Part shown: piece after piece, positions 13,886-32,475 of the stretch | Layout of the letters: each line of letters opens with the position of its first letter | How positions within the stretch are numbered: the first letter of the stretch is position 1 | From: Nitrococcus mobilis | GTDB taxonomy: Bacteria; Pseudomonadota; Gammaproteobacteria; Nitrococcales; Nitrococcaceae | Length of the DNA: 44,796 bases | Direction of reading: 5' to 3' | NCBI GenBank assembly: GCA_024102725.1 | Contig: JAGFJL010000142.1 | Span: 1-44,796 of the forward strand | The notes under the pieces: generated by a model | What the model saw: the letters and a program-made list of their open reading frames with translations, nothing else | The model's database searches: none | Told to the model about the DNA's origin: nothing | Made by a program: the position numbers and the translations under genes

Positions 13886-14064
13886 AGGGCGATTCTGTGA
13901 TCCAGCTGGCCTGCCCTTACTATTTCAGGCGATGGCAGCCGGTGGGGCGCGTGCGGGTTAGGAAAAGGTAGGCTACTCGTCGAAGCCGCCGAGCTGGACG
14001 CTTGATTTCCGCGAGCGTCTCACAATCGATCACTACGTTGATTTTTGCAGGAGGCAGTACAGCT

Positions 14065-16032
14065 TTGTGCGGGATCGTGGGCTTGTGGCGCCTAAACCCT
14101 GACACGACGATTCGCGGGCCGATAGGGCCTTACGCCGAACGCATGGCGGCCGCGTTGACACACCGGGGTCCCGACGATGCGGGGCTATGGGAGGATGCAA
14201 CCGCCGACATGGCTCTGTCCCACCGGCGCTTGTCGATTATCGACCTCTCGCCTGAAGGCCATCAACCGATGGCTTCTCCATGCGGACGTTACGTGATCGT
14301 TTTCAACGGGGAAATCTACAATTTTCGGGCTCTTCGAAGGGAATTGGCCAAGCTGGGCTGTCTCTTCCGGGGTCATTCCGATACGGAGGTGCTGCTCGCG
14401 GCCATCGTCCAATGGGGGCTGGACAACGCCTTGCGTCGCCTCAACGGTATGTTCGCCTTCGCCCTGTGGGACCGCCGGATGCATTGTCTTCACCTGGCGC
14501 GTGACCGACTGGGTAAAAAACCGCTGTACTTCGGTTGGATCGGCGGGACATTCGCTTTCGCCTCGGAGCTTAAAGCCTTCCGGGTACTCGATGCATTCCC
14601 GGGAAAGCTCAACCGCGACGCCATAAGCCTTTATTTGCGCTTCGGCTATATCCCGGCGCCATGGTGCATTTACCAGGGATTCTACAAACTCCGCCAAGGC
14701 AGCATCCTTAGCTTCGACCGGCAGCAGGGCCGGGCGCCATTCAATCCGGCGCAATGCGTTCGAGCTTATTGGTCCGCAGCGGAGATCGCCCAGGCGGGAA
14801 TAGACAATCCGCTCGACAGTAACGAACAGCACACCATCGACCTCCTCCAGCAGCTACTGGAAGACGCCACGGCCCAGCGCATGGCGGCGGATGTACCGAT
14901 CGGCGCGTTTCTCTCGGGCGGCGTTGACTCGTCTTTAATCGTCTCTCTCATGCAAGCGCAAAGCGCCACGCCGGTTAAAACTTACGCGCTGGGGTTCGGT
15001 GACGGCACAAACAGTGAAACACCTTACGCACGGGCCATTGCCAGCTATTTGGGCACGGACCATACGGAACTGCACCTCACGGGGAAAGACGCCATCGACA
15101 CGGTGCCCGAACTGCCGGACATCGTCGACGAGCCCTTGGCGGACTTCGCCCAAGTACCCAATTACCTCATCGCTCGAATGGCGCGTCCGCACGCCAAGGT
15201 CGTACTCACAGGCGATGGCGGGGACGAGCTGTTCTGCGGTTACTCGCGGTTCAACGCCACCGCCCATCAGTGGCGCAACTTGCAACGGGTACCGCGGCCC
15301 GTGCGCAAGCTCGCCGCAGTTGTGCTCTCCTGCCGTTCCTGGCCGGCAGGAGAGCAAAATAAGTGGATGAAATCCGCGCTGCGCATCGGTGCTCGGTCAG
15401 TGGACGCGCTGTATTTCCAGAAGGTCTCTCAGTGGCTTTACCCGAGCGCGCTCCTCATCGGCGCGCGAGAGCCCTCGACCACCTTCCCCGATGGCGGCAA
15501 ATGGCCTGGCATAACCGACCCTGTGCTACGCACTCTGCTGCTCGATCTGACTCACTATCTGGCCGAAGTGATCCTGGTGAAGGTGGACCGGACCAGCATG
15601 GCCAACGGCTTGGAGGTCCGCAGCCCGCTGCTCGATTACCGGGTGGTGGAATGGTCCTGGCACCTGCCACGGCATATGAAAACCCGCGACCGGCAAGGCA
15701 AGTGGATTCTGCGCGAGCTGCTCGCCCGTTACCTCCCACGGCCCCTTTTCGAGCGGCCCAAGCAAGGCTTCGGCGCGCCCATCGGGCAATGGCTGGCCGG
15801 TCCGCTGCGCGGTTGGGCAGAAGACTTGCTGGCGCCCGAGCGGCTGCGCCGCCAAGGTCTCTTTAATCCCGAGCCGGTGCGGCGAGTGTGGACAACACGA
15901 TCCAGCGACAGCCGTCAGTGGCAGCACCGCATTTGGAATCTGCTCATGCTGCAAGCATGGCTGGACCGGGAGGCGTCGTCAGTGCCACGTAGCTCAGGCG
16001 ATGCCGAACATCGGGTGAGCGACGCCGTCTGA
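14065..16032 (+). CDS. asnB: Asparagine synthetase B-type glutamine amidotransferase
   Basis: A 655-residue protein. The start is a TTG at 14065 behind AGGAGG, so after initiator removal Cys2 of MCGIVGLW is the N-terminal nucleophile of the class II glutaminase. Glutaminase landmarks are HRGPDD (33-38) and NGEIYNF (81-87). The synthetase half has the PP-loop SGGVDSS (284-290) and VKVDRTSMANGLEVRSPLLD. It transfers glutamine-derived ammonia to an adenylated carboxylate. The product may be asparagine, but in polysaccharide loci such proteins also amidate sugar acids or amino-acyl substituents. It opens the glycan block, and a decayed second copy lies at 26098. Confidence 0.9.
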   Translation: MCGIVGLWRLNPDTTIRGPIGPYAERMAAALTHRGPDDAGLWEDATADMALSHRRLSIIDLSPEGHQPMASPCGRYVIVFNGEIYNFRALRRELAKLGCLFRGHSDTEVLLAAIVQWGLDNALRRLNGMFAFALWDRRMHCLHLARDRLGKKPLYFGWIGGTFAFASELKAFRVLDAFPGKLNRDAISLYLRFGYIPAPWCIYQGFYKLRQGSILSFDRQQGRAPFNPAQCVRAYWSAAEIAQAGIDNPLDSNEQHTIDLLQQLLEDATAQRMAADVPIGAFLSGGVDSSLIVSLMQAQSATPVKTYALGFGDGTNSETPYARAIASYLGTDHTELHLTGKDAIDTVPELPDIVDEPLADFAQVPNYLIARMARPHAKVVLTGDGGDELFCGYSRFNATAHQWRNLQRVPRPVRKLAAVVLSCRSWPAGEQNKWMKSALRIGARSVDALYFQKVSQWLYPSALLIGAREPSTTFPDGGKWPGITDPVLRTLLLDLTHYLAEVILVKVDRTSMANGLEVRSPLLDYRVVEWSWHLPRHMKTRDRQGKWILRELLARYLPRPLFERPKQGFGAPIGQWLAGPLRGWAEDLLAPERLRRQGLFNPEPVRRVWTTRSSDSRQWQHRIWNLLMLQAWLDREASSVPRSSGDAEHRVSDAV

Positions 16033-16065: not shown

Positions 16066-17082
16066 TTAAAAGGAAGAAGGCCGCTTCACTGCCCCCCTGG
16101 TTCCGCCCGTGGCCGGCTCCTTGCTGGTGGCACCGGGATAACCATAGGCGGCGAGCGGCAGCCCGGTCTCATCAGCTAACCGTCGATTGCTCTCGGCGAA
16201 ATACTCTTGAATGAAGGCGACGATGTCGCTGCCAAGCAACTCACGCGACGATAACACGCGCCCGGCAAGGCGAGTCGCGTTAAACCGTTCGAGTTGACGC
16301 ATCAGGCTCTTAAATCGAAAGATCGGAATCCCGCTGCACCTGTCAACAACGTCACCACGATAGCTTATATGATGCAGAAGTCGAGCTAGCCGCAGCGTCC
16401 GGTGCCGGTAGCTGGCATTGAGCGAGTCGAAATCGACCCGGTCCAAATCCAGGGCCACACCCATCTGCGCAATATAGTCCGCAAGAAAGGCACGAGCATC
16501 GCGGCGAAATGATTCGTAAGCGAAAACGTGCACGTTTTCTACGCCGAACAGGGCTCGATAGTGGCGGATCAGCCCGAGATACGCAAAATGATCGAAAAGA
16601 AACAACGGCTTAGTATATGGTTTCCAGCCGTTGTATTGCTGCAAGCCCTTCCGGTAGCGGGCGGGAAAGAGAAACCGCCTAGGTCCATGTGTGCCGCCCC
16701 GCTTAATATACTGCGCGTATGCTGAGGCGATCATATCCAGCTGATTGCGGATGAAAATGACGATCGCGGCCCGCGGTAACACACTATGGATGCGCCCGGC
16801 AATATCCTTGGACAATGCGCCCAGGTGCCCGCCCGTTTGAAAATTACCGCTTAGCTCCTCCTCACAAAGGATCGGCGGCAGCCCACCGTCTAGCTCCAAC
16901 CACGCGCGCACGGTCTGCGGATCGAACACGAAGGTATGATCATAAAGAAAGGCATTTCTAACTTTGGCTGGCTGAAGATAGCGGTAGTTTTCCACGAAGG
17001 GGTACAGGCGGCGTTGAAACCACGTCGTGGCGGTTTTATGGTAACCAATATGGACAATACCGTTACCGCAATCACCGCCCAA
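16066..17082 (-). CDS. Sulfotransferase family protein A
   Basis: About 338 residues. The N-terminal HIGYHKTATTWFQRRLYP is the PAPS 5'-phosphosulfate-binding loop, and IVIFIRNQLDMIASAYAQY is the 3'-phosphate-binding R...S region. It therefore transfers sulfate from PAPS to an acceptor, here most likely a glycan. The start is uncertain: a TTG at 17082 follows a GGGGGGAT tract and starts just before the P-loop, while the frame stays open to 17178. It is the last gene of the minus-strand run beginning with the fusion gene at 22683. Confidence 0.8.
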   Translation of the reverse strand: MGGDCGNGIVHIGYHKTATTWFQRRLYPFVENYRYLQPAKVRNAFLYDHTFVFDPQTVRAWLELDGGLPPILCEEELSGNFQTGGHLGALSKDIAGRIHSVLPRAAIVIFIRNQLDMIASAYAQYIKRGGTHGPRRFLFPARYRKGLQQYNGWKPYTKPLFLFDHFAYLGLIRHYRALFGVENVHVFAYESFRRDARAFLADYIAQMGVALDLDRVDFDSLNASYRHRTLRLARLLHHISYRGDVVDRCSGIPIFRFKSLMRQLERFNATRLAGRVLSSRELLGSDIVAFIQEYFAESNRRLADETGLPLAAYGYPGATSKEPATGGTRGAVKRPSSF

Positions 17083-17178
17083 CGTTACATCCCCCCCACT
17101 CTCTAACCGAGATATACACACTACGCGAGAATAAGCGGGTGCGACGCGTATGAGCCGCGTTGGGCGGCAACAAACCAC

Positions 17179-18138
17179 CTACCGCCCACGCAGGAAGCGC
17201 AGCAATTCCGGCAGCGCCTGCAATGGTCCCCGCGGATCACGCCGTGCCCGGCGCAAATCGTCGAGCAAAGTATCAATATATCTCAACACCGGTGCCCGCA
17301 CCGTCAGCTCCTGCTCGATCCGCTGCCAGTCCTTCCATAACGCCGCGGAGTCCGGGGCGATCTCATCGTGCGCGAGCCGATGCAGCCAACGATAGGCGTC
17401 GCGCACCAATGGGTCGAGTTCCTGACTGGCCTGGAGATCCTCGATCGTAAACTGGCTGTGGCGCAGACCAAGCACCAGGAAGTCGGTCGCGAATTCTTTG
17501 ATCGCAGCCCGGGTCTGCGCCGTCAGTGCAATCCGCAAATGCCGAGCCACGCGCTCGAGCTGGCCGGTCGGGTTTGCGATCACGGCATCGTAGTCGACCA
17601 CGACGAAACTTCGCTGAGCCACCGTGCGAAAATAGGGAACGACGTTTACCAGCCACTCCAGGTCGCTTTTGACCTGCATGCCCCGCCGCGGATTCAGCTG
17701 GGTACGCGAGCGCGCCACACTGAGCGGGTTGCGCAACGCCACGACATAGCGCACATCGAGATCGAGCTCGCGGAAAACCGCCTCCCAGAACGGCAGCATA
17801 CGCAGAGTCCGGGCGTATTTAAAACCCCACAACCGGCTCGCGCCGAACCGCCGTTCGATCGTTTGCACGGCGCGGCGTCGCAGCAGCTGGACCTTGGGAT
17901 TGTCCCATTGCGAAGGCGGAATGAGGCGCACGCTCTCACCGGTGATCCCGAGTGCGCGCTTCAAGCGCTTGTTGAGCGCCAGCAGATCGCGGTCCTCGAA
18001 AAAACCGGTGGGGTTCTTACCGCGCCCGCGGCGCAGCCGGTTACCCAAATCCACCCCCAGCGCCTGCACGCCGCGGGTGAGCGCGCTGGTGCCGCTGCGC
18101 CCGGCGCCGAGCACGACGATGGCCCTGTTCCGGGACAT
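17179..18138 (-). CDS. Sulfotransferase family protein B
   Basis: About 319 residues. VVLGAGRSGTSALTRGVQAL is a P-loop of the sulfotransferase superfamily of the GAGRSGTS type. VRYVVALRNPLSVARS carries the second, R...S-containing PAPS-contacting segment. It is a different subfamily from sulfotransferases A and C. ATG 18138 is the simplest start; a GTG at 18189 overlapping the end of the upstream oxygenase gene would add 17 residues. The neighbouring oxygenase and other sulfotransferases suggest modification of the same glycan or glycolipid. Confidence 0.78.
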   Translation of the reverse strand: MSRNRAIVVLGAGRSGTSALTRGVQALGVDLGNRLRRGRGKNPTGFFEDRDLLALNKRLKRALGITGESVRLIPPSQWDNPKVQLLRRRAVQTIERRFGASRLWGFKYARTLRMLPFWEAVFRELDLDVRYVVALRNPLSVARSRTQLNPRRGMQVKSDLEWLVNVVPYFRTVAQRSFVVVDYDAVIANPTGQLERVARHLRIALTAQTRAAIKEFATDFLVLGLRHSQFTIEDLQASQELDPLVRDAYRWLHRLAHDEIAPDSAALWKDWQRIEQELTVRAPVLRYIDTLLDDLRRARRDPRGPLQALPELLRFLRGR

Positions 18139-18178
18139 TACCCCGTGGCCGAGTCCATCATCCGCACCTCCCGAAGGC

Positions 18179-18901
18179 TCAGTAATCACGGATCGACTCG
18201 CCCCTGAGGCGCGCGCTGATCCGCCGCAGACCCGCTCGCAGACGATCGTTGATTACGACGATGAACACCTTGCGATAATACCCCTCGGGGGCACGGATCT
18301 CGCGCACCCCATGCCAGGAGTTGCCCTGGCGCTGAAACAGCAGGCTGCGGTTACCGAGGCTCTCACCGGCCAGCGCTTGGTCGAAATCGGCGAAATCCGG
18401 CGCCGAGCTGCGCTTGAACCGCCCCCCATCGTCGAGAATGAGGGTTTCACCACCCCACGCGGGGTCCCAATCGTCCGCGGTATTGAAGTAGAAAATATGC
18501 GAGCCCAGCTTACGCATCGCATCGCAGTGGGGCGATACCGAGCAACCTCGGGGAGTGTAATGCCAATGGAAGTTGAGCTGGATCCGGCCGCGGCCGAACA
18601 GGCGCCGCAGAAACCGGCCGTACTCCGCACCGCGCAGCTCCTCGACGAAAGCATGCCAGGGCTCGGCCACGGGAAGGTCCGTGCGGTATTCCAAAGCGAG
18701 CCGATCGTGGGGTTTCTGGCCATGCGAACGCCGGATACCGAACATGCGGGCAAACAGCGCGGGATCCGGCAGAGTCTGCAACAATCGGCGATAGCCCGGC
18801 TCCGTCAACAAGCCTTGCGGGTTACACCAAGGATAAGGCGCACGTGTGCGAAAGGCCTCCGCATCCAATGCCGCCAAGCGTTCGTAATCCAGGTAGGTCA
18901 T
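18179..18901 (-). CDS. 2-oxoglutarate/Fe(II)-dependent oxygenase
   Basis: A 240-residue protein with the double-stranded beta-helix signature. The iron ligands can be read as His125 and Asp127 in SPHCDAMRK and His197 in SWHGVR; Arg210 in EGYYRKVFIV is a candidate 2-oxoglutarate contact. It resembles small prolyl-hydroxylase-like oxygenases found in polysaccharide loci. It hydroxylates an unknown substrate, and hydroxylation could create a site for the adjacent sulfotransferases (inference). ATG 18901 has no strong Shine-Dalgarno sequence. Confidence 0.8.
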   Translation of the reverse strand: MTYLDYERLAALDAEAFRTRAPYPWCNPQGLLTEPGYRRLLQTLPDPALFARMFGIRRSHGQKPHDRLALEYRTDLPVAEPWHAFVEELRGAEYGRFLRRLFGRGRIQLNFHWHYTPRGCSVSPHCDAMRKLGSHIFYFNTADDWDPAWGGETLILDDGGRFKRSSAPDFADFDQALAGESLGNRSLLFQRQGNSWHGVREIRAPEGYYRKVFIVVINDRLRAGLRRISARLRGESIRDY

Positions 18902-18982: not shown

Positions 18983-20152
18983 CTAATTTTCGCCGGCCTC
19001 ATCAACGGCAATCGGCCTGCGCGACATCATTTGGCGAATATGCGCCACGGCGCGCGCCATATCATCCGGCGGCGCCCGGACCGCCCCTCCCCGCTCTTCA
19101 CCGAAGGCGGTGACCAGGCCCTGCGCCTCGAGCGCTCGGTGATAGGCGGCGAAATCGCGCGCCGGCTTGATCAGGCCCCAATATACGAGCCCGTCGAAGA
19201 CCCACCGACCCCATCGGGGCCTTGCCGAGCGCGGCGGCCCGCCGCTGGGATGATCAGCGCGCTGCCCTCTGCGCCGGCGCGTGGGCCAGTGGAACACCGC
19301 CACCGGCTTGCCGGTGGCGCAGGCTTCGATCGCCAGAGAGGCACTGTCGGCCGTAACGATAAAGCGATCGGCCAGCCGCAGGAAACCCAAATACGGGTTA
19401 TCCGGGTCTCCCGCGCGCCAGGCATAGCGATAAGCGGGACAATCCACGGCCTCGAAAAGTTCCCGCACCACCTCCGGTGGGGTCCGCGGGCTGGTGGTGA
19501 GTAACAGCGCCCCACCCGCTGCCTGCACATAACGGCTTACCTCCCCACCCAGCCGGCGTGCCGTAACCGGGTCCAGTATATAACTGGAGCTATTGCCGCC
19601 GACCAGCAATGCGACCAGTGGTCGCGGCAAATGGCGCAGGCGTGATGCCCAACGTGCCGCGGCCTGCTCCAGGCGGTGCGGGTCAATCCGGTTGAGCGGC
19701 GTAGTCAGCTGAAGCACGTTGGGCCGGGCGGGCAGCCGATACTGCGGCAAGGTAATGATCAAATCGAAACGATGCAGCGGAGCTTGGGCGTGCAGCAAAT
19801 GCACCAGCCGAGTATGCCCGCGGGAGCGTTTCTTGATCCATTGGGCGATCGGCGCGCTACGGCGTGACGCCGCGATCACCAGATCCGGCCACGGCGGGCG
19901 CAACGGGCTGCATTGCTTGCGCTTGAGGCTGACCGAGGTGCTGCCCAGAACGAGGTTGGGGCATAGATTGAGCATGTTATAGGCGAGGTGTTTGCTCTCG
20001 TAGGGCCAGCCAAGCGCCTCGGCAAGCGCAAGCAGCTGCGCGTTACCGCCGGCGCCTTTACCGAGCAAAACCCACACGCGCGGCGCGCGAACCGCGGGTA
20101 TATTAGCCGTCGCCAAACCGGCTGCGGCCGGTAGTTGCGCGGCGCCGGTCAT
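18983..20152 (-). CDS. ELM1-like (DUF1022) putative glycosyltransferase
   Basis: A 389-residue protein of the mitochondrial-fission-ELM1 family, named after a plant protein. The bacterial members look like GT-B-type sugar-nucleotide-binding proteins found near LPS genes. Key segments are VWVLLGKGAGGNAQLLALAE (N-terminal Gly-rich), PWPDLVIAASRRSAP, VALLVGGNSSSY and the C-terminal DNPYLGFLRLADRFIVTADS followed by SLAIEACATGKP. Its ATG overlaps the TGA of the upstream fusion gene (ATGA), so translation is coupled. It is a paralogue of the fusion's C-terminal part. The cellular role in bacteria is not established. Confidence 0.8.
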   Translation of the reverse strand: MTGAAQLPAAAGLATANIPAVRAPRVWVLLGKGAGGNAQLLALAEALGWPYESKHLAYNMLNLCPNLVLGSTSVSLKRKQCSPLRPPWPDLVIAASRRSAPIAQWIKKRSRGHTRLVHLLHAQAPLHRFDLIITLPQYRLPARPNVLQLTTPLNRIDPHRLEQAAARWASRLRHLPRPLVALLVGGNSSSYILDPVTARRLGGEVSRYVQAAGGALLLTTSPRTPPEVVRELFEAVDCPAYRYAWRAGDPDNPYLGFLRLADRFIVTADSASLAIEACATGKPVAVFHWPTRRRRGQRADHPSGGPPRSARPRWGRWVFDGLVYWGLIKPARDFAAYHRALEAQGLVTAFGEERGGAVRAPPDDMARAVAHIRQMMSRRPIAVDEAGEN

Positions 20153-22683
20153 GACACCGACTCCGCGCGCTCTTCGAGAGCATAGTCCCGATCGGTCGGG
20201 CGCCCTGGCGGCGAGCTTTCAGCCGCGCGCCGCAGATCGTGGTCATAAAAGCCCAATTGCTCACGCACGCGCTCAGCGAGCTCCGTGCTCTCCCGAAACG
20301 GCACGCGGGATCGCAACTCCAATGGAGCGCCGAACATCTGTGCCACGCCGCGTTCGATCAAAGCCCGATACAGCGCGGGCGTATCGCGGGGCGGCAGCAC
20401 CCAGGCCCGGTCGATCAAGCGGGCGCACAGGTATTGCAGACCGCGCTGAGGCCGCACGCTGCCGCGTTTGTTCCGCAGCGGGGCTTGGGCCTGACGGGTC
20501 ACCCAGCGGGCGAAGCGGTCCCATAACCTGACTCGCTCCGCAATCGGATAGATATAAAGCGGTTTATCGGTAGCGGCCGCTTCCGCCAGCATCGACTCGC
20601 TGTCCCCCGTTACCACGAGCACATCCGCAGCGCCCAAATAGGCAAAGTAAGGATTATCCGACTCCTCCCGACGCCACTCGTGCACGTATTCGGCGCCGCC
20701 GATCCCGAGCTTGAGCGCGGCGCTCGCGCGGGCACCGGTGCGCCGGCTAGTGATGGCAAGTGCCACCCCACCCGCCGCTCGGGCGAACGCCTGTAAATCT
20801 TTACCCAAACGGTACGCGCCCGCCGTATCGAGCACGGAATGCTTGCTGTCACCGCCCACCAGCGCCACCACGCGGGGACGGGGCAGCCCGGCGAAGCGCT
20901 CTGCTCGACGCTCGACCGCGTCCCGAAGCCGTTCCAGGCTCACCGGATGCACGGGCAGCAACGTCTCGATCCGGTTCGCCGCCAAGGGCAAGGCGAAGTG
21001 GGCGCAGCCGATCAGCAAATCGGACGACCCGCTCGGACCGTTTTTGCGCCCCAACAGCACGGCGCGCAGAGCCGGATTCTCGCAGCGCAGCCAGCGCGCC
21101 ACTCGGGTGGAGAACCAGCCGGAGGCGATCACCACATCGGGCCACGGTGGCCGCAACTCGCCGCCTTTGCCTAGCCCGGGCGACCAGCCCGGCCAGCCAA
21201 GCCGCTGCGCTGCCCACCGCGCCAGAAGCGCCCAGGGCAGCGTTCGTAGTAACTTGATCTCGTAAGGCCAGCCAAGCGCCTCGGCCAACCCCACAGCCTG
21301 GCTGGTATGCCCTGGTTTGCGGTGTGCCAAAACCCAAACGCGCGGCACACCGCCCACCAGCCGCCCGCCTACCCGCGTCGCCCGAATCCGCCGCCCGGTG
21401 GCATCGCGGGTGTTCAACACCAACTGGTAGTGCACGCGCGGGTGACGGCGGCTCGCCTGCTCGAAGCAGGCAAACCAACGGGCCGGTTGGCGCGGCGCGA
21501 TCTCCAGCGTACTGCCGTCCGGTAACCGTTTGAGCGGCGCGGCATCGTCCACCTCCACGTGCAGCAGGCGATCGCTCAATGCGAACAGCTCGTCGATCAA
21601 CCACGGCAAATCCTCATCCGGGAAGTACTCCAAGGCCCGTCGGCACAGCACGGCATCGAAAGACCGCGCAGCCTCTCCCTTCTCCCAGGGCGGCTCGCCC
21701 GGTGCGCGGCGCTCAACCGTCCACTCGGGCATCCGCCGATCGCGCTCACCGGTTGGTTGCCCGTGGGCCGAGGCGAAACCGAACTCCAAGACCGTGCGCG
21801 GCTTGGATCGTTGTAGCAAACGTCGGAGTGCCGGCCACTCCGAAAATCCGGCGTCGGCCACGGCGGCTGCCGGCAGGTCGCGGAAACGCCGCTGCAGAGC
21901 GCGGTAGCCGGCGCTGGGGGTAGCCGCATCGAAGAGCCGATAACCGGCTTGATCGGCCGAGCGCTCCAGTTCCAACCAAAGAGCACCGACCGGATTGCGC
22001 CAATAAACATAGTCATCGGGAAACGGCAGCCACGGCTGGGTCTGCAAGGTGGTGAAATGCACCAGCCGGGACCGGCCCGGGGTGTACTCGCCGTCACGCG
22101 CGTTCCAGGCGCCATCCAATCGGCCCCATATCCCCGAAACCGCCAGTGCCTTGGCTTCGAGCTGCCTACGGCGCAGGCGGCGCGCGCGCGCCAAGGTCCA
22201 AACGCGGGCCATGCGCGCGCAGTCGAGCAGCATCACCGAGGTATCCCGCGGGTGGATGGAGAGGAACCCATGCCCCTGCATCGGCGTATCGAACAACTCG
22301 GCGGGATCGGCGAGATAAATCTGGTCGGTGTCGTTATAGATCGCCCGCCCTGCACCGCCCGCAAGCTCCGGTATGGCAAAGCGATAGGCGGTGAAGCCGG
22401 TCAACCACCAGCGCCGATCGAAACCGGGCAGATCCTTCAACAGATAAATCTCGTAGCGGCGCGCCGGATCTCTTACCTTGACAATGGACCACACGAACAC
22501 CCGCTCCGCGCGGAACTGAGCCGCCTCGGTGCCAAGAAAGATCCGAACCGGGGGTTTATGGCTCTTCCCGGCCCCCGGCTCTGCCGGCAACACCACACAC
22601 TCCAGCTCGGGCCAGCGTCTGCGGCTTCTGGCCGGATCCTTCTGCGCGAGGCCCACAAACACGCGTTTGATCAGAAATGCCAT
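20149..22683 (-). CDS. Three-part fusion: GT8-like, methyltransferase-like and ELM1-like domains
   Basis: An 844-residue protein. Residues about 45-240 resemble a GT8-like glycosyltransferase, with the metal-binding DTD at 118-120 (AIYNDTDQIYL) and SVMLLDCARM. They match the stand-alone protein at 26542. Residues about 285-430 resemble a degenerate SAM methyltransferase (PRTVLEFGFASAHG, then SFDAVLCRRALEYFPDEDLP, VEVDD). Residues about 447-800 are an ELM1/DUF1022 domain (VWVLAHRKPGHTSQAVGLAE; GDSKHSV; DNPYFAYLGAADVLVVTGDS). The frame is continuous, so this is a genuine fusion. Two transferase-like ends suggest sequential sugar additions. It is the first gene of the minus-strand operon. The central assignment is the least certain. 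Confidence 0.75.
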   Translation of the reverse strand: MAFLIKRVFVGLAQKDPARSRRRWPELECVVLPAEPGAGKSHKPPVRIFLGTEAAQFRAERVFVWSIVKVRDPARRYEIYLLKDLPGFDRRWWLTGFTAYRFAIPELAGGAGRAIYNDTDQIYLADPAELFDTPMQGHGFLSIHPRDTSVMLLDCARMARVWTLARARRLRRRQLEAKALAVSGIWGRLDGAWNARDGEYTPGRSRLVHFTTLQTQPWLPFPDDYVYWRNPVGALWLELERSADQAGYRLFDAATPSAGYRALQRRFRDLPAAAVADAGFSEWPALRRLLQRSKPRTVLEFGFASAHGQPTGERDRRMPEWTVERRAPGEPPWEKGEAARSFDAVLCRRALEYFPDEDLPWLIDELFALSDRLLHVEVDDAAPLKRLPDGSTLEIAPRQPARWFACFEQASRRHPRVHYQLVLNTRDATGRRIRATRVGGRLVGGVPRVWVLAHRKPGHTSQAVGLAEALGWPYEIKLLRTLPWALLARWAAQRLGWPGWSPGLGKGGELRPPWPDVVIASGWFSTRVARWLRCENPALRAVLLGRKNGPSGSSDLLIGCAHFALPLAANRIETLLPVHPVSLERLRDAVERRAERFAGLPRPRVVALVGGDSKHSVLDTAGAYRLGKDLQAFARAAGGVALAITSRRTGARASAALKLGIGGAEYVHEWRREESDNPYFAYLGAADVLVVTGDSESMLAEAAATDKPLYIYPIAERVRLWDRFARWVTRQAQAPLRNKRGSVRPQRGLQYLCARLIDRAWVLPPRDTPALYRALIERGVAQMFGAPLELRSRVPFRESTELAERVREQLGFYDHDLRRAAESSPPGRPTDRDYALEERAESVS

Positions 22684-22907
22684 GCGGTTGGCTCCAAGCT
22701 GCAGCGAAACCCGAAGATCACGACGCGGCCGTCATGGTTGGGTCATCGTATTGGGTTTGACCGGCTCGTGCACTACGCGCACGGCCATCCCCATGCCAGT
22801 TTCATCCGTTCGGCCCCGGAGGCGAGGCCGCGCCCACCCGCTCGCCCGGTAGGTGCACGCGGCCGACGTGGCATATAATGGCCGCGGCAGACAACGAGAG
22901 GAATGAC

Positions 22908-23861
22908 ATGGCGCAACTACCCGATCGGTACCGGCGCGCCGCCGTAATCGGCGGCACGGCCTGGCTCCCCGCGACATTGCGCGTGCGTGCCCGACGCACG
23001 CTGCTCGGCGCGCTGCAGCGCCACCAGGCACGCAAAGCCAACGTGGTGATCATCGTCCACCCCAAAAGTGGCGGCACCTGGCTGCGGGTCATGCTCTTTC
23101 GCCTGTTCCAACGCAAATACGCTCTCCCGGCACGGCGGGTGATGAAAACCGACGAGCTCCAGCACTACAACCAAACCTTGCCGCGGTTCATCGTCAGCAA
23201 CGGGCATTACAGTTACGAGGCCGCCGTTCGCGAGGTTTTGACCAACGAACCCGCCGATGACAAGCAGCTGATCTTCCTCGCTCGCCACCCTTGCGACATC
23301 GCCGTATCCTGGCACCTTCAGTTCACCCGCCGGATTTCTGCAGCCAAGCGTGAGCTCATCCTGCACGAATTGCACCAGCCTATCGATTATAAAACCATCC
23401 CATTGTGGGAGTTTGTGATGCACCCCGAACTCGGGCTGCCGGGGCTGATCGATTACCATAACCAATGGGCCGAGTTCTGCGCCGGCCGTGACAACGGCCT
23501 CATCGTGCGCTACGAGGATTTGCGGGCCGATACCCGTGCCACGCTGCAACGCATCACGGCCCGTTTGGGCGAGACATTCAGCGACGCGGAACTTGATGAG
23601 GCGGTCGAATTCGCCTCCTTCGACAACCTGCGCCGGCTCGAGGAGGCCAACTACTTCCACAACGCCAGCCTGCGCCTGCAGGACCGCAACGATCCCAGCC
23701 GCTATAAGGTGCGGCGAGGCAAGGTGGGCGGTTTCCGCGACGACTTCGAACCGGCGCAGGCAGAGGAGATGGAAGCGCTCGTGCGCGCCCACCTGAGCCC
23801 GATTTTGGGCTATAGCGGGCCTGTCACCCCAGGCGCGGTAGCCGCCAACCAACGGCCTTAG
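22908..23861 (+). CDS. Sulfotransferase family protein C (cytosolic-type domain)
   Basis: A 317-residue protein with the Sulfotransfer_1 layout: 5'-PSB loop HPKSGGTWLR (51-60), 3'-PB segment FLARHPCDIAVSWH (around 138-151), and the C-terminal RRGKVGGFRDDF corresponding to the RxGxxGxW element. It uses PAPS to sulfate an alcohol or sugar. ATG 22908 is preferred to an earlier in-frame start because GAGAGGAA lies 5 bases upstream. It is divergently transcribed from the fusion gene, whose start is 224 bases away, so the two probably share a regulatory region. Confidence 0.88.
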   Translation: MAQLPDRYRRAAVIGGTAWLPATLRVRARRTLLGALQRHQARKANVVIIVHPKSGGTWLRVMLFRLFQRKYALPARRVMKTDELQHYNQTLPRFIVSNGHYSYEAAVREVLTNEPADDKQLIFLARHPCDIAVSWHLQFTRRISAAKRELILHELHQPIDYKTIPLWEFVMHPELGLPGLIDYHNQWAEFCAGRDNGLIVRYEDLRADTRATLQRITARLGETFSDAELDEAVEFASFDNLRRLEEANYFHNASLRLQDRNDPSRYKVRRGKVGGFRDDFEPAQAEEMEALVRAHLSPILGYSGPVTPGAVAANQRP

Positions 23862-24478: not shown

Positions 24479-25783
24479 ATGGCAGCGATTGAAGAGGCGA
24501 TGGCAACCCCATTCATTGCCGCAAAACGCACCAGCGAGACATCCGGTGCAAGCCTGGACAAAGCCCATATCGCCTTGCTCATGCGGGACCTCGAGGGCGG
24601 CGGGATCCAGAAAAACCTGCTGCGGTTGGCGGAGAGTTTCAGTCACCGCGGTCATACGGTCGATTTGGTGGTCTACAAGGCCAAGGGGCCACACCTTGCG
24701 CGTATTCCACCCGGCGTCAATCTCGTTGCCCTGGAATGCATGGCATTCAAACCCGCTGCGCGGGGGTTGGCGTTTGGCTACCTGCTCGCGGCCGACCCAC
24801 CGGCATTATGGCCGTTGCTGCCACCGCTGCGGCAGGCGTGGGAAGTATCGCCCTGGCTCAAACGCCTGCCGGCGTTGACGCGGTATCTTCGCCAAACACG
24901 GCCGCAAGCCCTGCTCTGCGCGGGTAGCATCCTGAGCTGTACGGCTGTGTTGGCCCGACGGCTGGCTAACACCACGACCCGGCTGGTAGTGAGCGAACGC
25001 AATCATCTATCGAGCTGTATCTCGTCCAATATCAAAAGAAAACCACACCAATGGCGTCAGCGTTACCTCGCCGAGCTGATGGCGCGAACCTATCCTTGGG
25101 CCGATGCCATCGTTGCCGTCTCCAACGGCGTGGCGGATAACCTCGCTGCCACCGTCAGACTGCCACGCGAGCGGATTACCACTGTTTACAACCCGATCGT
25201 TTCGGCCGAGCTGTTTGAACAGGCCAAGGCGCCGCTGAGCCACGCCTGGTTCGGCCCCGATGCTCCGCCAGTAGTGCTGGGGGCGGGTCGATTGGACGAT
25301 CAAAAGAGCTTTCCAACCTTGCTGCGCGCCTTCGCGCTTGTCAGAGCACAACGGTCGGTACGGCTCATGATACTGGGCGAAGGCAAAGGGCGATCACAGC
25401 TGGAGGCTCTAACCCAGGAGCTCGGGATCGCCAGCGACGTGCTCCTGCCCGGCTTTGCGGCCAATCCGGTCGCCTATATAGCGCGCGCCGCCGTGTTCGT
25501 GCTCTCTTCGGCCTATGAAGGATTGCCGACCGTGCTTATCGAGGCGCTTGCTTGTGGTTGCCCGGTCGTGTCGACCGACTGCCCGAGTGGTCCGCGTGAA
25601 ATCCTGCAAGACGGGCGCTATGGCCCATTGGTGGCGGTAGGCGATGATCGAGCCCTGGCTCGAGCCATTCTCGCCGTGCTGGATAACCCGCCGAATCGAG
25701 AACGGCTGCGGCGACGCGCCACCGAGTTTTCGATCGAACGTGGCACGGAGCGGTATTTGGAGATACTTCTGGGAACCTCGTAA
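24479..25783 (+). CDS. Glycosyltransferase family 4 (GT-B fold)
   Basis: A 434-residue protein. The N-terminal acceptor half has HIALLMRDLEGGGIQKNLLR (Gly-rich loop). The C-terminal half has the donor-binding signature AYEGLPTVLIEALACGCPVV (EX7E) and ends STDCPSGPREIL. Retaining GT4 enzymes add hexoses or similar sugars from nucleotide donors on the cytoplasmic side of the membrane. It closely resembles the GT4 at 28498, with the same CPSGPREIL block. ATG 24479 has GGAG about 10 bases upstream. It probably builds the glycan made by this locus. Confidence 0.92.
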   Translation: MAAIEEAMATPFIAAKRTSETSGASLDKAHIALLMRDLEGGGIQKNLLRLAESFSHRGHTVDLVVYKAKGPHLARIPPGVNLVALECMAFKPAARGLAFGYLLAADPPALWPLLPPLRQAWEVSPWLKRLPALTRYLRQTRPQALLCAGSILSCTAVLARRLANTTTRLVVSERNHLSSCISSNIKRKPHQWRQRYLAELMARTYPWADAIVAVSNGVADNLAATVRLPRERITTVYNPIVSAELFEQAKAPLSHAWFGPDAPPVVLGAGRLDDQKSFPTLLRAFALVRAQRSVRLMILGEGKGRSQLEALTQELGIASDVLLPGFAANPVAYIARAAVFVLSSAYEGLPTVLIEALACGCPVVSTDCPSGPREILQDGRYGPLVAVGDDRALARAILAVLDNPPNRERLRRRATEFSIERGTERYLEILLGTS

Positions 25784-26541: not shown

Positions 26542-27393
26542 ATGGACGAGATACAAATCTACATCGGCTGCACGCCGGCGCAGGAGGTAGTTGCCAAAGT
26601 TTTGGCATGGTCTGTACTCGAACACACACGAGATCCCGTACAATTTCATCGCTTGCACGAGTGCGCGGTCGAATTCGAGATGCCCCGTCAGCCGGAGAAT
26701 CGTCCCGGTACGCCGTTTTCGTTCCAGCGCTTCATGATCCCAGAAATCGCTGGATTCAAGGGCCGGGCGATTTACATGGACTCGGATCAGATCGTATTCA
26801 AGGATATCGCCAAGGTGTTCGAGCGCCCAATGGGCGGCGCTCCGTTATTGTGCTGCGATACTCATAAGAAGAACAAACCACGGCCAATGCTGCGCTCGAG
26901 CTTCATGCTACTCGACTGTGCCCGCCTGGACTGGAAAATGCGCGATATCGTCTCGGATCTGGACGCGGAACGCTATAGTTATCAGTCGCTATTCTCCCTG
27001 GAGGGCTACGACACCTCGCTGCCACGCTCCTGGAACTCGCTGGACCAATACCGCTGGCCGATCACGGCGTTGCTGCATTACACAGGTAAAGAGAATCAGC
27101 CTTGGATTCACCATCACCACAAGCTGGCACGGTTATGGTTTGGCTACCTCTTTTCAGCATTAGATGCTGACTTCATTTCCGAGCATGAGGTGTATGTTTC
27201 GGCAGAGAATGGTCTGGTACGGCCGTCAATTAAGTATCAACTCGAGCACCGGCTGATCGATCCGCGCCGCATGCCCGATCACGTCAAGGCCTGGGACGAT
27301 GAGTTCATCGACGCCTGCGCACAGCGCGAATTCAATACTGTGCCGGGCGAATACCGGCCGCCGTCCAAGACCGCTGCAGCGCGCACGGCCTAG
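26542..27393 (+). CDS. GT8-like glycosyltransferase
   Basis: A 283-residue GT-A-type protein. It starts with IQIYIGCTPAQEVVAKVLAW, the nucleotide-sugar-binding strand. The metal motif DSD is in GRAIYMDSDQIVF (around residue 80), and SFMLLDCARL and HYTGKENQPWIHHHHKLARL follow. The arrangement equals the N-terminal domain of the fusion at 20149 (AIYNDTDQIYL; MLLDCARM). It probably transfers a sugar from a UDP donor with retention, in the cytoplasm. The stop is 12 bases before the next gene, so the two form an operon. Confidence 0.85.
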   Translation: MDEIQIYIGCTPAQEVVAKVLAWSVLEHTRDPVQFHRLHECAVEFEMPRQPENRPGTPFSFQRFMIPEIAGFKGRAIYMDSDQIVFKDIAKVFERPMGGAPLLCCDTHKKNKPRPMLRSSFMLLDCARLDWKMRDIVSDLDAERYSYQSLFSLEGYDTSLPRSWNSLDQYRWPITALLHYTGKENQPWIHHHHKLARLWFGYLFSALDADFISEHEVYVSAENGLVRPSIKYQLEHRLIDPRRMPDHVKAWDDEFIDACAQREFNTVPGEYRPPSKTAAARTA

Positions 27394-28497: not shown

Positions 28498-29772
28498 TTA
28501 GGCGCTGGCGAGAACCCGCAAATACTCAACCGTGGCTTTTTCGGGGCTGAATTCATCGGCCCTGGCGGCAAGCCGCTGCGCATCTGCCGGCCGGTCCAGG
28601 GTTCGCCCTATGGCCGCGGCCAAGGCCGCCGCATCGCCCACGGGCACCAGTTCACCGTAGCGACCGTCCGCCAGGATTTCGCGCGGACCGCTTGGGCAGT
28701 CCGTACTCACCACAGGACAACCACAGGCCATGGCTTCGATCAAGACCGTAGGCAGACCCTCGAACTTCGAGGAGAGGACGAATACGTCGGCCGCCGCCAT
28801 ATAGGCAAACGGATTTTCGACGAAGCCGGCGAAGTGTACGATGTCGGCAATGCCCAGGCGCACCGTCTGCCGCGCGAGTTCATTGCGCCTCTCGCCATCG
28901 CCAAGGATCGCCAGCCGCACCGGGCGCCGGCTGCGCAACTGTGCTATGGCTAGCAACAGGGTGGGAAAATCCTTTTGTGGGTCGACGCGCCCTGCGGTCA
29001 CGATCAGCGGAGTCGAATCGCCCGTTACCCAGGCATCCCGCATTGGCTGTCGCGCCATTGTCCGTAGCCGCGGTGTGACCACCGGATTATAGATGATATG
29101 CGCAGCGCTGGCCGGCAGACCGCAGAATGCCTCCAAACCCCGAGCGACGCCCTCTGATACGGCCACAACGGAGTCGGCCTGAGCGTAGCAGCGCTTGAGC
29201 AGTGGCGGCAAAAAATGCCAGCGCCAGCGACCTTTGTCGCCCGCCTGTAGTTGTTGCCGGGCGTGTTCGGCGACGCTGCGGTGGGCGCTGAGCACAAGCC
29301 GCGTCGGCGATTTCGCCAAGCGCCGGGCCCATACCGCGATGAGGTTGCAGTCGGTGTCGGCGGCCAGCAGCGCCGGCGGACGATTGTCCGCGAGATAACA
29401 TGCCAGGGGCCGTACGAACTTCAAGCGTGCTACCGCCCTGTAGGCCAGCAGCACCGGCCGCAGCAGAGCGGCGAATCCCCCGGGGTCGGCACGCAGAACC
29501 CAATACCGCCCCGCCAGTTTGGAAGCGCGCGGCAGCGCGACCACCCGGATCCCGGGCGGGACCTGGGCGGCCAGGTTGCCGTCAGCATGGCAGACCAGCA
29601 GGTCCACGCGCAAACCAGCCGCATTGAGGCCTTCGCATAAATTGAAGATCACTCGCTGCACCCCACCAAGCCGCATGTCGGTCATGAAGATGGCGACGTC
29701 CGCCCTACCGGACACCGCTCGCCGGCGCAACAATGCGACGTATTCGGCCGTGCCCGGCTGGGTCTCTAACAT
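28498..29772 (-). CDS. Glycosyltransferase family 4 (second copy)
   Basis: About 424 residues. It has the N-terminal Gly-rich MTDMRLGGVQRVIFNL and the C-terminal EX7E segment FEGLPTVLIEAMACGCPVVS followed by TDCPSGPREIL, as in the GT4 at 24479. The two are clear paralogues. It adds a sugar from a nucleotide donor to the growing glycan. The start is ATG 29772 or the GTG at 29790; neither has a good ribosome-binding site. It is convergent with the sialyltransferase-like gene, with 21 bases between stops. Confidence 0.9.
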   Translation of the reverse strand: MLETQPGTAEYVALLRRRAVSGRADVAIFMTDMRLGGVQRVIFNLCEGLNAAGLRVDLLVCHADGNLAAQVPPGIRVVALPRASKLAGRYWVLRADPGGFAALLRPVLLAYRAVARLKFVRPLACYLADNRPPALLAADTDCNLIAVWARRLAKSPTRLVLSAHRSVAEHARQQLQAGDKGRWRWHFLPPLLKRCYAQADSVVAVSEGVARGLEAFCGLPASAAHIIYNPVVTPRLRTMARQPMRDAWVTGDSTPLIVTAGRVDPQKDFPTLLLAIAQLRSRRPVRLAILGDGERRNELARQTVRLGIADIVHFAGFVENPFAYMAAADVFVLSSKFEGLPTVLIEAMACGCPVVSTDCPSGPREILADGRYGELVPVGDAAALAAAIGRTLDRPADAQRLAARADEFSPEKATVEYLRVLASA

Positions 29773-30046
29773 CGGATTAACCGTTGTCACACGCCGATCG
29801 GATAGTGCGACGCACCCGAACGCCGCGTTTCGGCAGCGTCGGCGGACGCGATTCCTGCGAGGCTTGAAACATCAGGATACCTCATCGCGACGACAAGCCC
29901 CAGTTGGGGCCGCCGCTGCCCATGGGGGGATTAATATTGCCACATGGCACGCATTGAGCGCGCCGGATAGGTTCACGAACGAGGACGGCTCGGGATATCT
30001 GCTGGATTTGCTGGAAAAATCTGCCAAGCTCACCATTGCGTCGCCT

Positions 30047-31171
30047 TCAGGGGTTCGTGCCATTAAGGATCTGAGCGTAAGCGCCAGCAGTAGCGTCGGC
30101 GATGCGAGGCCACTCATACTCGGCCAAATCCGGCCGGCGATCGTCCAAAGCGGCTGCTGCCAGCAGCGCATCTTCTAGCAACGCCGGGGTGAGCTCGCCG
30201 TGGAACAGTCGCACCCATTCCGAGCCGACGCTCTGCGCCAGCTCCAGCAGGGCGCCTTTAGCCGGGACCAGCACTGGTCGGTCGAAAGACAATGCGAGCA
30301 GCGCGGTGCCGGAATTGAGCACTTCATCGTAGGGCAGCACAACCAGATCGGCCGACCTCAAATAAAGCTGCATCTCCTCCTCGGGCACTTGTGCCAGACA
30401 CGCACGCACCCGAGGATCGGCAGCAACCCGGAGGGTAATGGCGCGGTGCAACTTTTGGGTCCGCACCCGGCCAGCAACGATGAGCACGGCATTGCTGTCC
30501 CCCATTTGCGCGAACACATCGATGAGCCGAGGCACATTCTTATAAGGACGGATCTGGCCGACAAACACGGCCACACGCGCATCGACCGGCAGCCCCAGTC
30601 GGGCGCGCGCGCCAGCCCGGGTGACAATGTCGGGATAGAGGTCGCGATAATGCCCGTGGGGGATAACGAACCCAGGCGTCCGGGCGAGTGCCGGAAACTT
30701 GTCCATGGCGAGCTGGCGGCCAGTCTCGGTGAGGCTGATGTAGGCGTCCACCCGGGGAATGAACATGCGCCAGAACCAGTTCTCAAGCCACGGATGCCGC
30801 TTCTCGTGGGCGTGGGAGCCCAGGTTGTGCACCGTCCACACAATGCGGGTGCCCCGCAGGCGGGCCCAGCACAGCAACGCGGCGAGAATCTGCATCTTAA
30901 CTACCACCTTGACGGGCATGGGCGAAACCAACACACCGTCCGGCCAGTGCAGATGCCAAATGTCCACATGCGGCCCGATCAGGAGCTCGCGGCGGGAGAA
31001 CTCCACCACCTGCACGCCGCGCCGGCAAAGCTGCTCGGCCAGGAACCAGGTATAGGGGTTGGACGCGCGACCTTTGAACGCGGGTGACGCCATGATCTTC
31101 AATGATGATTTGTGGCTGGCGTTGGTGCAGTGTTCGGCCGTACGAGAATTCTTAGGCAACCTGGTGTTCAT
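30047..31171 (-). CDS. Glycosyltransferase family 4/GT-B type
   Basis: A 374-residue protein. Early NPYTWFLAEQL, HLHWPDG and VWTVHNLGSHAHEKRHPWLE and the later GFVIPHGHYRDLYPD followed by VAVFVGQIRPYKNVP show a GT-B glycosyltransferase, similar to beta-type GT4 enzymes of exopolysaccharide loci. The donor-binding half includes VVLPYDEVLNSGTALLALSF. ATG 31171 overlaps the TGA of the upstream GT2 gene in an ATGA, implying coupled translation. Protein homology starts near a TTG at 31102, so that is the alternative start. The gene is the last of its two-gene unit. Confidence 0.82.
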   Translation of the reverse strand: MNTRLPKNSRTAEHCTNASHKSSLKIMASPAFKGRASNPYTWFLAEQLCRRGVQVVEFSRRELLIGPHVDIWHLHWPDGVLVSPMPVKVVVKMQILAALLCWARLRGTRIVWTVHNLGSHAHEKRHPWLENWFWRMFIPRVDAYISLTETGRQLAMDKFPALARTPGFVIPHGHYRDLYPDIVTRAGARARLGLPVDARVAVFVGQIRPYKNVPRLIDVFAQMGDSNAVLIVAGRVRTQKLHRAITLRVAADPRVRACLAQVPEEEMQLYLRSADLVVLPYDEVLNSGTALLALSFDRPVLVPAKGALLELAQSVGSEWVRLFHGELTPALLEDALLAAAALDDRRPDLAEYEWPRIADATAGAYAQILNGTNP

Positions 31172-32214
31172 GGCCGCCACGGTGGTATTAGGCCGGCTCC
31201 CAGGCGGGTGCGCGCAAACTGTACGAGTCCACCCCAGGCGGTACTGGCGAGGGGCGAGCGCCAAAATCGGGCCCAGGCGGCCGGTCCGATCTCGCCGGTT
31301 GCGTACCAACAGGTTTTGAGCCAGAAGCTGCTCAATACACGTGAAAACGCGGGTTCGGGATACAGCGGGGCGTTTTGGTTGGCCGCCTGCATTCGTCGCA
31401 GCCAATCGTCGGCCCAAGCGAGGTAGGGGCGGTCTGGGCGATAGCTGAGTTTGCCCATACGTCGTAGCAAGTAGTGGCCCTCCAAATCATCTTCCGTGAA
31501 GGAAAGTCCCAACGCTTCGAGCTGTTCGGCATAGATCCCGAGGCGCCAGGCCTTGATGCGCTCCGATTGCCCTCTGGTGGTACGCCCGCCGTGAGCGCGA
31601 CGGTAGACCAGGATCTGCGGCAGACAGGCGAGCTTGTGATCAGCGGCGACGCGCGTCCACAAATCGTAATCCGAACCAAGCTTGATGTGCTCACGATGGC
31701 GGTAGGCTCTGAGAAGAGCGGTGCGCGCCATGGCAGCAGAATTCTCCAGACACGAGCGGAACAACCGCTCCGCGGCGATTTGATCCCAGGTGGTGGCCTT
31801 GCGCTTCACCTGCCCGAGCGGGCGGCCAGCCTCATCCATCCATTCGATCCAACTGCCCACCGCGGCATAATCCGGATGATCGCGTAAAAAAGCCACCTGG
31901 CACGCCAGTCGCTCCGGCCGGGCGCGATCGTCGCTATCGAGAAAGGCCAGGAATTCGCCGCGTGCCTCATCGACGCCCCGGTTGCGGCTGCCGGGGATGC
32001 CGAGCTGAGTCTCGTTGCGAAGCAGCCGCAGCCGCCGATCCCGGTAGGAGGCGGCTGACTCGGCGCTGCCATCGCTCGAGGCATCATCGATGATCAGCAG
32101 TTCGAAATCCGCGAACGTCTGCGCCAAAACGCTATCGATCGCATCCCGGATATAACCCACGCGATTGTGGACTGGAATCAAGACGGTAACCGTTGGTGTG
32201 CTATACGCTGTCAT
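31168..32214 (-). CDS. Glycosyltransferase family 2 (GT-A)
   Basis: About 348 residues. VTVLIPVHNRVGYIRDAIDS, then LLIIDDASSDGS and the acidic FLDSDDRARPERL are the GT2 nucleotide-binding and DXD motifs; the LGSDYDLWTRVA segment follows. Inverting GT2 enzymes transfer sugars from nucleotide donors, typically in surface polysaccharide assembly. ATG 32214 fits the family; an ATG at 32253 has GAGG nearby and would add 13 residues. The C-terminal ~80 residues are less conserved. The ATGA overlap couples it to the following GT. Confidence 0.88.
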   Translation of the reverse strand: MTAYSTPTVTVLIPVHNRVGYIRDAIDSVLAQTFADFELLIIDDASSDGSAESAASYRDRRLRLLRNETQLGIPGSRNRGVDEARGEFLAFLDSDDRARPERLACQVAFLRDHPDYAAVGSWIEWMDEAGRPLGQVKRKATTWDQIAAERLFRSCLENSAAMARTALLRAYRHREHIKLGSDYDLWTRVAADHKLACLPQILVYRRAHGGRTTRGQSERIKAWRLGIYAEQLEALGLSFTEDDLEGHYLLRRMGKLSYRPDRPYLAWADDWLRRMQAANQNAPLYPEPAFSRVLSSFWLKTCWYATGEIGPAAWARFWRSPLASTAWGGLVQFARTRLGAGLIPPWRP

Positions 32215-32475
32215 TGGCAATAGGGCTGGAAAACCGCCTCCGATGATGCGCATGATACCTCGCCGAGCCAACCTGCCCCGGGCGCTCGGCCAAGCCGCCG
32301 GTAGCATGGTCGTGCCGCCGCAGCTTGAATTTAGAATAAGATATCATGGTGATTTTTATCCGGACACGGTGCGGGCACACCCCATCGGGCCGCGATAGGG
32401 GCGATCGACTCCGGGTCCATCGCAACAGGCACGTCCTGCGCAGCCGCGGCGCACTCAGCGCAAGAGGCAAACGTA

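Follow-up and report, generated by a model that had tools for sequence, protein, structure and literature searches.

A three-part GT8-like/ELM1 fusion gene of Nitrococcus and its association with ceramide-type genes

What is an ELM1 domain doing in the same bacterial protein as a predicted sugar transferase? The question is raised by a 44,796-nucleotide contig (JAGFJL010000142.1) of the Nitrococcus mobilis assembly GCA_024102725.1, the whole of which we call the window. One gene on its minus strand joins a GT8-like part, a methyltransferase-like part and an ELM1 domain, and a preliminary description, made from the sequence alone, took this fusion as direct evidence that ELM1 domains act in glycan assembly. 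The fusion by itself is an association only. The same description stated that ELM1 has no established bacterial function, a premise that is out of date because both the activity and the genetics of one such protein have been published. In the available text of these reports, the ELM1-like protein 2903 of Acinetobacter baumannii is required for the third 3-deoxy-D-manno-oct-2-ulosonic acid (Kdo) residue (PMC10936431), and the purified protein, KdoT (A1S_2903), is a cytidine monophosphate (CMP)-Kdo transferase that adds this residue to Kdo2-lipid IVA (PMC12856342).

The main point that we add is a link to sphingolipid synthesis. Because the gene accompanies ceramide-making genes in several phyla, its product likely adds sugars to bacterial sphingolipids. 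We propose, with a probability of about 0.62, that the fusion is a two-module glycosyltransferase that assembles the sugars of the head group on an outer-membrane lipid built on ceramide. As a glycosyltransferase prediction this is ordinary; what is new is a group of ELM1 proteins linked to sphingolipids.

The fusion protein and its conserved residues

An open frame of 844 codons was verified at 20149-22683 on the minus strand of the window, a strand that the preliminary description does not give, and matching genes are found in independent genomes. The parts of the fusion, and the gene that follows it, are:

20149..22683, minus strand: fusion gene (844 aa) with GT-A/GT8-like, degenerate methyltransferase-like and ELM1 (GT-B) parts
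21937..22557, minus strand: residues 43-249, GT-A fold, GT8-like, the best-conserved part
22324..22332, minus strand: DTD, residues 118-120, predicted metal/nucleotide site
21352..21936, minus strand: residues 250-444, class I S-adenosylmethionine (SAM) methyltransferase fold without motif I (LEFGFAS)
20236..21351, minus strand: residues 445-816, ELM1 domain, GT-B fold
20737..20748, minus strand: SRRT, residues 646-649 (within TSRRT, 645-649)
18983..20152, minus strand: second, stand-alone ELM1 gene (389 aa) with an SPRT motif, overlapping the fusion by ATGA

The three-part architecture of the preliminary description stands, the ELM1 part by its Pfam match and the other two by their predicted folds. 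PF06258 (ELM1) matches residues 457-726 (E = 1.8e-52, 178.8 bits, cut-off 27) and is the sole Pfam match of the whole protein at E <= 0.1; a GT4-type domain like that of the Caulobacter enzymes Sgt1 and Sgt2 is not among the matches at this threshold. The first part searched alone meets the GT8 profile PF01501 at E = 0.07 (13.1 bits, cut-off 24.3) and is called GT8-like rather than GT8 because it misses that cut-off, and the middle part meets a methyltransferase profile at E of about 0.08, again below the cut-off. While both are sub-threshold by sequence, the predicted structure of the protein (predicted local distance difference test score, pLDDT, 88) supports them, with a GT-A/GT8-like, a class I methyltransferase and a GT-B fold in that order. 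The ELM1 region, which might have lacked any GT-type fold, is predicted to be the GT-B part, and the first part combines a predicted GT-A fold with a DxD motif. Compared by sequence with solved structures, the whole protein had no match at E <= 10, and NCBIfam gave no model for the fusion or for three of its relatives (P0004, P0014, P0020).

The possibility of an assembly error or chimera was ruled out, since independent genomes carry the fusion: it is present in five genomes of the window's genus, its own included, and in relatives from several phyla. N. mobilis Nb-231 has it on a 3.6-Mb contig, and the fusion in N. mobilis is 86% identical to the window copy. The frame is also more than a chance one: of 7998 candidates scored in a protein search, 1198 were relatives at E <= 0.001, and for most of the 120 listed the alignment covers some 90% of the length or more. 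Some carry the public name "ELM1/GtrOC1 family putative glycosyltransferase". When each species was represented by a single genome, 180 stretches were found to encode a relative, and the best 80 were kept as loci. The taxa include Nitrococcus, Salinisphaera, Wenzhouxiangella and other Gammaproteobacteria, Nitrospirota, Binatia, Myxococcota, Planctomycetota, and Alpha- and Betaproteobacteria. A second, distant GT8-like/ELM1 fusion of 784 aa (L128:6458-8812), on a long branch, was also found in a genome that bears serine palmitoyltransferase (SPT).

Conservation was counted over 75 rows, namely the window and the 74 of 80 loci with a fusion open reading frame (ORF). It is highest in the GT-A part (0.71, against 0.52 and 0.33 for the other two). 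The DTD motif noted in the preliminary description reads N117-D118-T119-D120; D118 and D120, for which a metal role is predicted, are invariant in 75/75 rows, as are H209 and W218. In the ELM1 domain, R648 of SRRT is present in all 115 rows of alignment A1 and in 68/75 genome-locus rows, the exceptions being one truncated row and replacements by G, H, P, K, E and G.

The fold of the methyltransferase-like centre was supported as described. A functional methyltransferase is probably not there, because SAM motif I (D/E-x-G-x-G) is absent, and we judged an active enzyme in the window protein unlikely. The motif is missing in 73/75 rows; the middle domain was aligned and modelled from 53 of the 74 loci, mostly the longer ones. 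Only L036 and L080 retain it intact (LDYGAGK), and from their sequences this is possibly the ancestral, active state.

The coupling of the second ELM1 gene was found as first described: it starts inside the fusion stop codon, the overlap reading ATGA, and PF06258 matches its residues 34-298 (E = 7.2e-67, 226.1 bits, cut-off 27). In both proteins the match stops at profile position 264 of 304. In 11 of the loci examined a tandem ELM1 gene directly follows the fusion; taking the start codon closest to the stop, the overlaps are 4-11 nt.

Association with ceramide-type genes

Clustering of the ORFs from the 80 loci, with many, though not all, of the recurrent clusters typed, placed ceramide-type genes near the fusion. 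These comprise SPT and fatty acyl-AMP ligase, both above their cut-offs (that of NCBIfam for SPT), a CerR-like epimerase, and a GNAT-like protein, below the Pfam cut-off, in the position of the bacterial ceramide synthase. Also nearby are MobA-like and other nucleotidyltransferases, MsbA-like ABC transporters, LptF/LptG, LpxL-like acyltransferases, a diacylglycerol kinase (DAGK)-type kinase, a CDP-alcohol transferase and a fatty acid hydroxylase. In a recount by tblastn with the ceramide-type genes of the window's own genome, at bit thresholds that we set, the 80 loci contained SPT in 28, acyl carrier protein (ACP) in 26, CerR-like genes in 24, acyl-AMP ligase in 24, CerS-like genes in 27, MobA-like genes in 37 and the kinase in 21. 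At least one of SPT, CerR, ligase and CerS occurred in 31/80 loci and at least two in 28/80. SPT lies within about 10 kb of the fusion in 28/80 loci, where chance would give about 0.45/80 for genomes of 4 Mb and loci independent of one another, an independence that relatives lack. In Nitrospirota it is directly upstream of the fusion, after the ligase and CerR, in 10/13 loci; in two of the other three the contig begins just before the fusion.

Several arrangements within these loci are worth recording. At L100:5946-8402 a CerR-like epimerase and SPT share a single frame of 818 aa, so that two ceramide enzymes are naturally fused, and similarly long SPT frames occur in other Salinisphaera genomes. 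In loci of Wenzhouxiangella and Salinisphaera (L049, L033 and others) the gene immediately before the fusion encodes an LpxL-like acyltransferase, a hint that the lipid may bear an extra acyl chain. Nitrospirota loci (L015:13902-18316) have genes for Gfo/Idh, NeuB-cupin, HAD phosphatase and CMP-sugar synthetase next to the fusion, which suggests a CMP-linked acid sugar as donor. In P0068 (1091 aa) and P0097 (1087 aa) a nucleotidyltransferase is fused ahead of the entire three-part protein. It is 47-56% identical to one that is found beside the MobA-like and CerS-like genes of Nitrospirota loci and also near the fusion in Binatia loci; in gene position alone, it recalls CpgD of Caulobacter, described in the available text as a phosphoglycerate cytidylyltransferase (PMC12275187).

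The association extends to whole genomes. Among 50 fusion genomes hand-picked from the 80 loci, SPT was above the cut-off in 29, a match of 376-427 bits was found in 17, and none was convincing in 4. Seven of the 17 were typed, and all best fit the Bacteroidetes-type SPT model (502-553 bits, cut-off 640). Among the 54 genomes of the window's order, the GT-A part occurs in five, all of the window's genus, and SPT was above the cut-off in 4/5 of these versus 2/49 others. An even draw of 369 Gammaproteobacteria gave five genomes with the fusion and 21 with SPT above the cut-off; SPT was present in 5/5 fusion genomes and in 16/364 others (nominal Fisher p = 3.7e-7). In 196 genomes drawn from the class of the Nitrospirota genome G014, eight had the fusion, 15 had SPT above the cut-off and seven had both, or 7/8 fusion genomes versus 8/188 others. 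In the remaining fusion genome a shorter SPT match adjoins the fusion, and the gap between the SPT and GT-A matches is 132-585 bp in 7/8. Both class draws include their centre genome, a known fusion carrier, without which the proportions are 4/4 and 6/7. The link also persists where the fusion and the ceramide genes are on separate contigs (e.g. G000, G348, G027). Genomes with SPT and no fusion are common (16/21 and 8/15 in the two draws) and those with the fusion and no SPT are rare, as would be expected of an accessory enzyme for the head group.

ELM1 domains differ in this respect. The Gammaproteobacteria draw contains 101 ELM1 matches in 80 genomes. Short matches, defined as ending at or before profile position 280 of 304 (a split chosen after viewing the match list), were found in 13 genomes, 12 of them with SPT, whereas genomes with only long, conventional ELM1 showed no link (SPT in 3/66 versus 6/290, p = 0.38). 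Because this cut was post hoc, a tree of 66 ELM1 domains was built, and it is the better definition of the subgroup. One side of a supported branch (97/87) holds 40 domains. They are those of all the fusions (17), along with 7 tandem copies, 14 stand-alone genes of the short type and 2 of the long type, both of the latter within 13 kb of SPT. SPT is above the cut-off in the genomes of 39 of the 40 and is of the Bacteroidetes-like type in that of L008; fusion loci were the source from which 19 of the 40 were chosen. By the tree, SPT is present in 12/12 draw genomes with a fusion-side ELM1 versus 9/357 others, a contrast that is partly by profile because 49 of the 75 long matches were counted outside by profile alone; the tree took the other 26, which represent 20 of the 66 genomes with long matches only. 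The two definitions differ for two short matches (that of G384 and one of several in G182), which fall outside, and for the long ones of G306 and G229, which fall inside. In three genomes a stand-alone ELM1 gene is 432-466 bp from SPT.

The tree is unrooted (midpoint for drawing); four long branches (L128, L127, L133, L136) and 8 rows of unusual composition were flagged, and N. mobilis (L003) represents the window's two domains. The fusions do not form one group, 12 rows being together and 5 elsewhere, so the fusion may have arisen or re-formed more than once. A small, very divergent ELM1 group (L129:1665-2837, L135, L136:2208-3287) lies outside both main sets.

The glycan locus of the window

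The fusion and its tandem partner are surrounded by other glycan-type genes:

14002..16032, plus strand: asparagine-synthase-type amidotransferase of the glycan locus (PF00733, E = 5.4e-110)
16066..17178, minus strand: weak sulfotransferase-like gene (PF13469, 14.2 bits, below cut-off 27)
17179..18189, minus strand: sulfotransferase-like gene (PF13469, 27.5 bits, cut-off 27)
18179..18901, minus strand: 2-oxoglutarate (2OG)-Fe(II) oxygenase-like gene, a recurrent neighbour (PF13640, 26.6 bits, cut-off 27)
22878..23861, plus strand: sulfotransferase, divergent from the fusion (PF00685, E = 2.9e-19)
24479..25783, plus strand: GT4-type glycosyltransferase (PF00534, E = 8e-36)
26542..27393, plus strand: stand-alone GT8-like gene (PF01501, 22.6 bits, just below cut-off 24.3)
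28498..29790, minus strand: GT4-type glycosyltransferase (PF13692, E = 3.2e-39)
31168..32307, minus strand: GT2-type glycosyltransferase (PF00535, E = 3.3e-30)

The stand-alone GT8-like gene is a paralogue, at 37% identity, of the GT-A part of the fusion. Relatives of the oxygenase-like cluster occur in 28/80 loci, those of the divergent sulfotransferase in stretches of SPT genomes (L122, L124, L125, L126, L097), and the amidotransferase has a 43% relative in the SPT locus L123. L122 and L123 both contain LptF, LptG, MsbA, ELM1, separate GT8-like genes and GT4; L122 additionally has sulfotransferases and ACP, and L123 an amidotransferase. Relatives of these glycan genes are present in the locus of the window, which therefore resembles one half of such a locus, the glycan half, with the ceramide half on contig C60 of the same genome (L087:1308-11684). 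C60 carries genes for a DAGK-type kinase, LptF, LptG and a nucleoside triphosphate (NTP) transferase, CerS-, AasR- and CerR-like genes, ACP and SPT. Literature searches on the sulfotransferases and on Nitrococcus with sphingolipid found nothing related.

Proposed role and alternatives

We suggest that the GT-A module, with its invariant DxD, would use a nucleotide donor to attach one sugar, and that the ELM1 module, predicted as a GT-B fold, would add a second from a nucleotide-activated, perhaps CMP-linked, donor by analogy with KdoT, the conserved Arg of SRRT steadying that donor. The degenerate middle part would be a scaffold that joins the modules, SAM binding having probably been lost in most members. 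The tandem ELM1 enzyme may extend the sugar chain; the GT4, GT8-like, sulfotransferase and oxygenase genes nearby may complete a sulfated glycan, the ceramide-anchored glycolipid thus being possibly sulfated; and the MsbA-like and extra LptF/LptG transporters would carry it outward.

Known systems resemble parts of this scheme. As described in the text available for PMC12856342 and PMC10936431, KdoT shares with the fusion the ELM1 family, a GT-B model and an SRRT motif with a critical second Arg (R180 in KdoT), and it acts in envelope glycolipid assembly; no single essential base is described for it (PMC12856342). It differs in its size of about 35 kDa and in having no GT-A part, and the likeness is drawn from the published description, not from sequence. 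In our tree, which has no KdoT row, the group that holds the fusions does not take in the conventional ELM1s. Sgt1 and Sgt2 of Caulobacter crescentus, described as GT-4 enzymes that glycosylate ceramide stepwise, are alike in predicted role, and the available text mentions neither a GT-A nor an ELM1 module for them (PMC6445935). The Caulobacter phosphosphingolipid locus CC_1152-CC_1168 (CpgA-D, CerS, CerR, AcpR, AasR, LptC2/F2/G2) resembles C60 and the genes flanking the fusion in its ceramide, kinase, nucleotidyltransferase and LptF/G functions, by gene set rather than sequence (PMC11324152, PMC12275187, PMC9386255, as far as their available text goes). Its product has a phosphoglycerate head group, and the word ELM1 is absent from the main text of PMC11324152 and PMC12275187 as available. 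LgtC and other GT8 enzymes differ in that the fusion is below the Pfam GT8 cut-off and joined to two further domains. WbbM-type bifunctional glycosyltransferases (6u4b) are a further similar system; they act in O-antigen polymer synthesis, and we know of none with an ELM1 part. In the literature searched, which included few subscription papers and no bioRxiv preprints, ELM1 was not found tied to bacterial sphingolipids; the matches listed for ELM1 and sphingolipid were only yeast, fungal or unrelated titles, and DUF1022 as a search term found nothing.

Several observations weigh against a sphingolipid role. No ceramide gene was found within the window, those of its genome being on another contig. 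An SPT-like match below the curated cut-off is all that 17/50 fusion genomes have, and the four with no convincing match include a fragmented Nitrococcus. The Fisher values overstate the association because genomes within a clade are not independent. The names CerS-, CerR- and AasR-like are putative, following from family and gene order, and the CerS-like proteins are below every Pfam cut-off; the replacement of the ELM1 Arg in 6/75 rows implies that this module may be dead in some members. WaaA, whose loss from fusion genomes could have separated the two roles, is also present in 49/50 of them and CMP-sugar synthetase genes in 15/80 loci, so a role in the core of lipopolysaccharide (LPS) or lipooligosaccharide (LOS) fits too. 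This is the main rival: the fusion would be a core glycosyltransferase like KdoT, the GT-A part adding a hexose and the ELM1 part Kdo or a similar ulosonate to the inner core, and its occurrence in sphingolipid makers would be coincidental. The reported activity of KdoT on Kdo2-lipid IVA (PMC12856342), the one ELM1 activity described in the papers cited here, NeuB-like genes in 8/80 loci and the LpxL-like and LptF/LptG neighbours agree with it. Even so we consider it unlikely, as several ceramide-type genes recur jointly beside the fusion among the neighbour clusters typed, and the fusion's ELM1 group follows SPT (12/12 genomes) while conventional ELM1s of about KdoT size do not, in a tree without KdoT.

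A locus for capsule, exopolysaccharide or another surface glycan, the ceramide link reflecting shared residence in a surface-glycan island, would account for the glycosyltransferases, sulfotransferases and amidotransferase of the window and for the surface-polysaccharide cluster (TIGR04396) in 14/80 loci. It would not lead one to expect a co-occurrence that is genome-wide and holds across contigs, nor core ceramide-type genes at the frequencies found in the 80 loci, and we give it little credence. It is also conceivable, if not very likely, that only the GT-A module is an enzyme, with the ELM1 and methyltransferase-like parts as non-catalytic scaffolds or substrate-binding domains, an arrangement compatible with a sphingolipid substrate. 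The higher conservation of the GT-A part, and its motifs in 75/75 rows against 68/75 for the ELM1 Arg, point that way; the retention of this Arg in most rows, and a tandem stand-alone ELM1 gene that suggests function independent of the GT-A part, argue for a second active module.

The proposal of a ceramide glycosyltransferase can be carried further, at what we judge to be somewhat less than even odds. One ELM1 group, alone or fused to a GT8-like part, may be an unrecognised family of sphingolipid glycosyltransferases whose loci encode a second LPS-like outer-membrane glycolipid, with ceramide in the place of lipid A, separate export by MsbA and LptF/G, and a core of its own that is sometimes sulfated. 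Candidate taxa would be Nitrococcus, Nitrospirota, Binatia, Salinisphaera, Wenzhouxiangella and others. The bacterial ceramide glycosyltransferases described so far in the papers cited here are the GT-4 enzymes Sgt1 and Sgt2 of Caulobacter. If the proposal is true, the family still labelled "mitochondrial fission" in databases would split into KdoT-like and sphingolipid parts, large environmental groups, nitrite oxidisers included, would gain a predicted ceramide-based surface glycolipid, and the question of what ELM1 does in bacteria would become testable.

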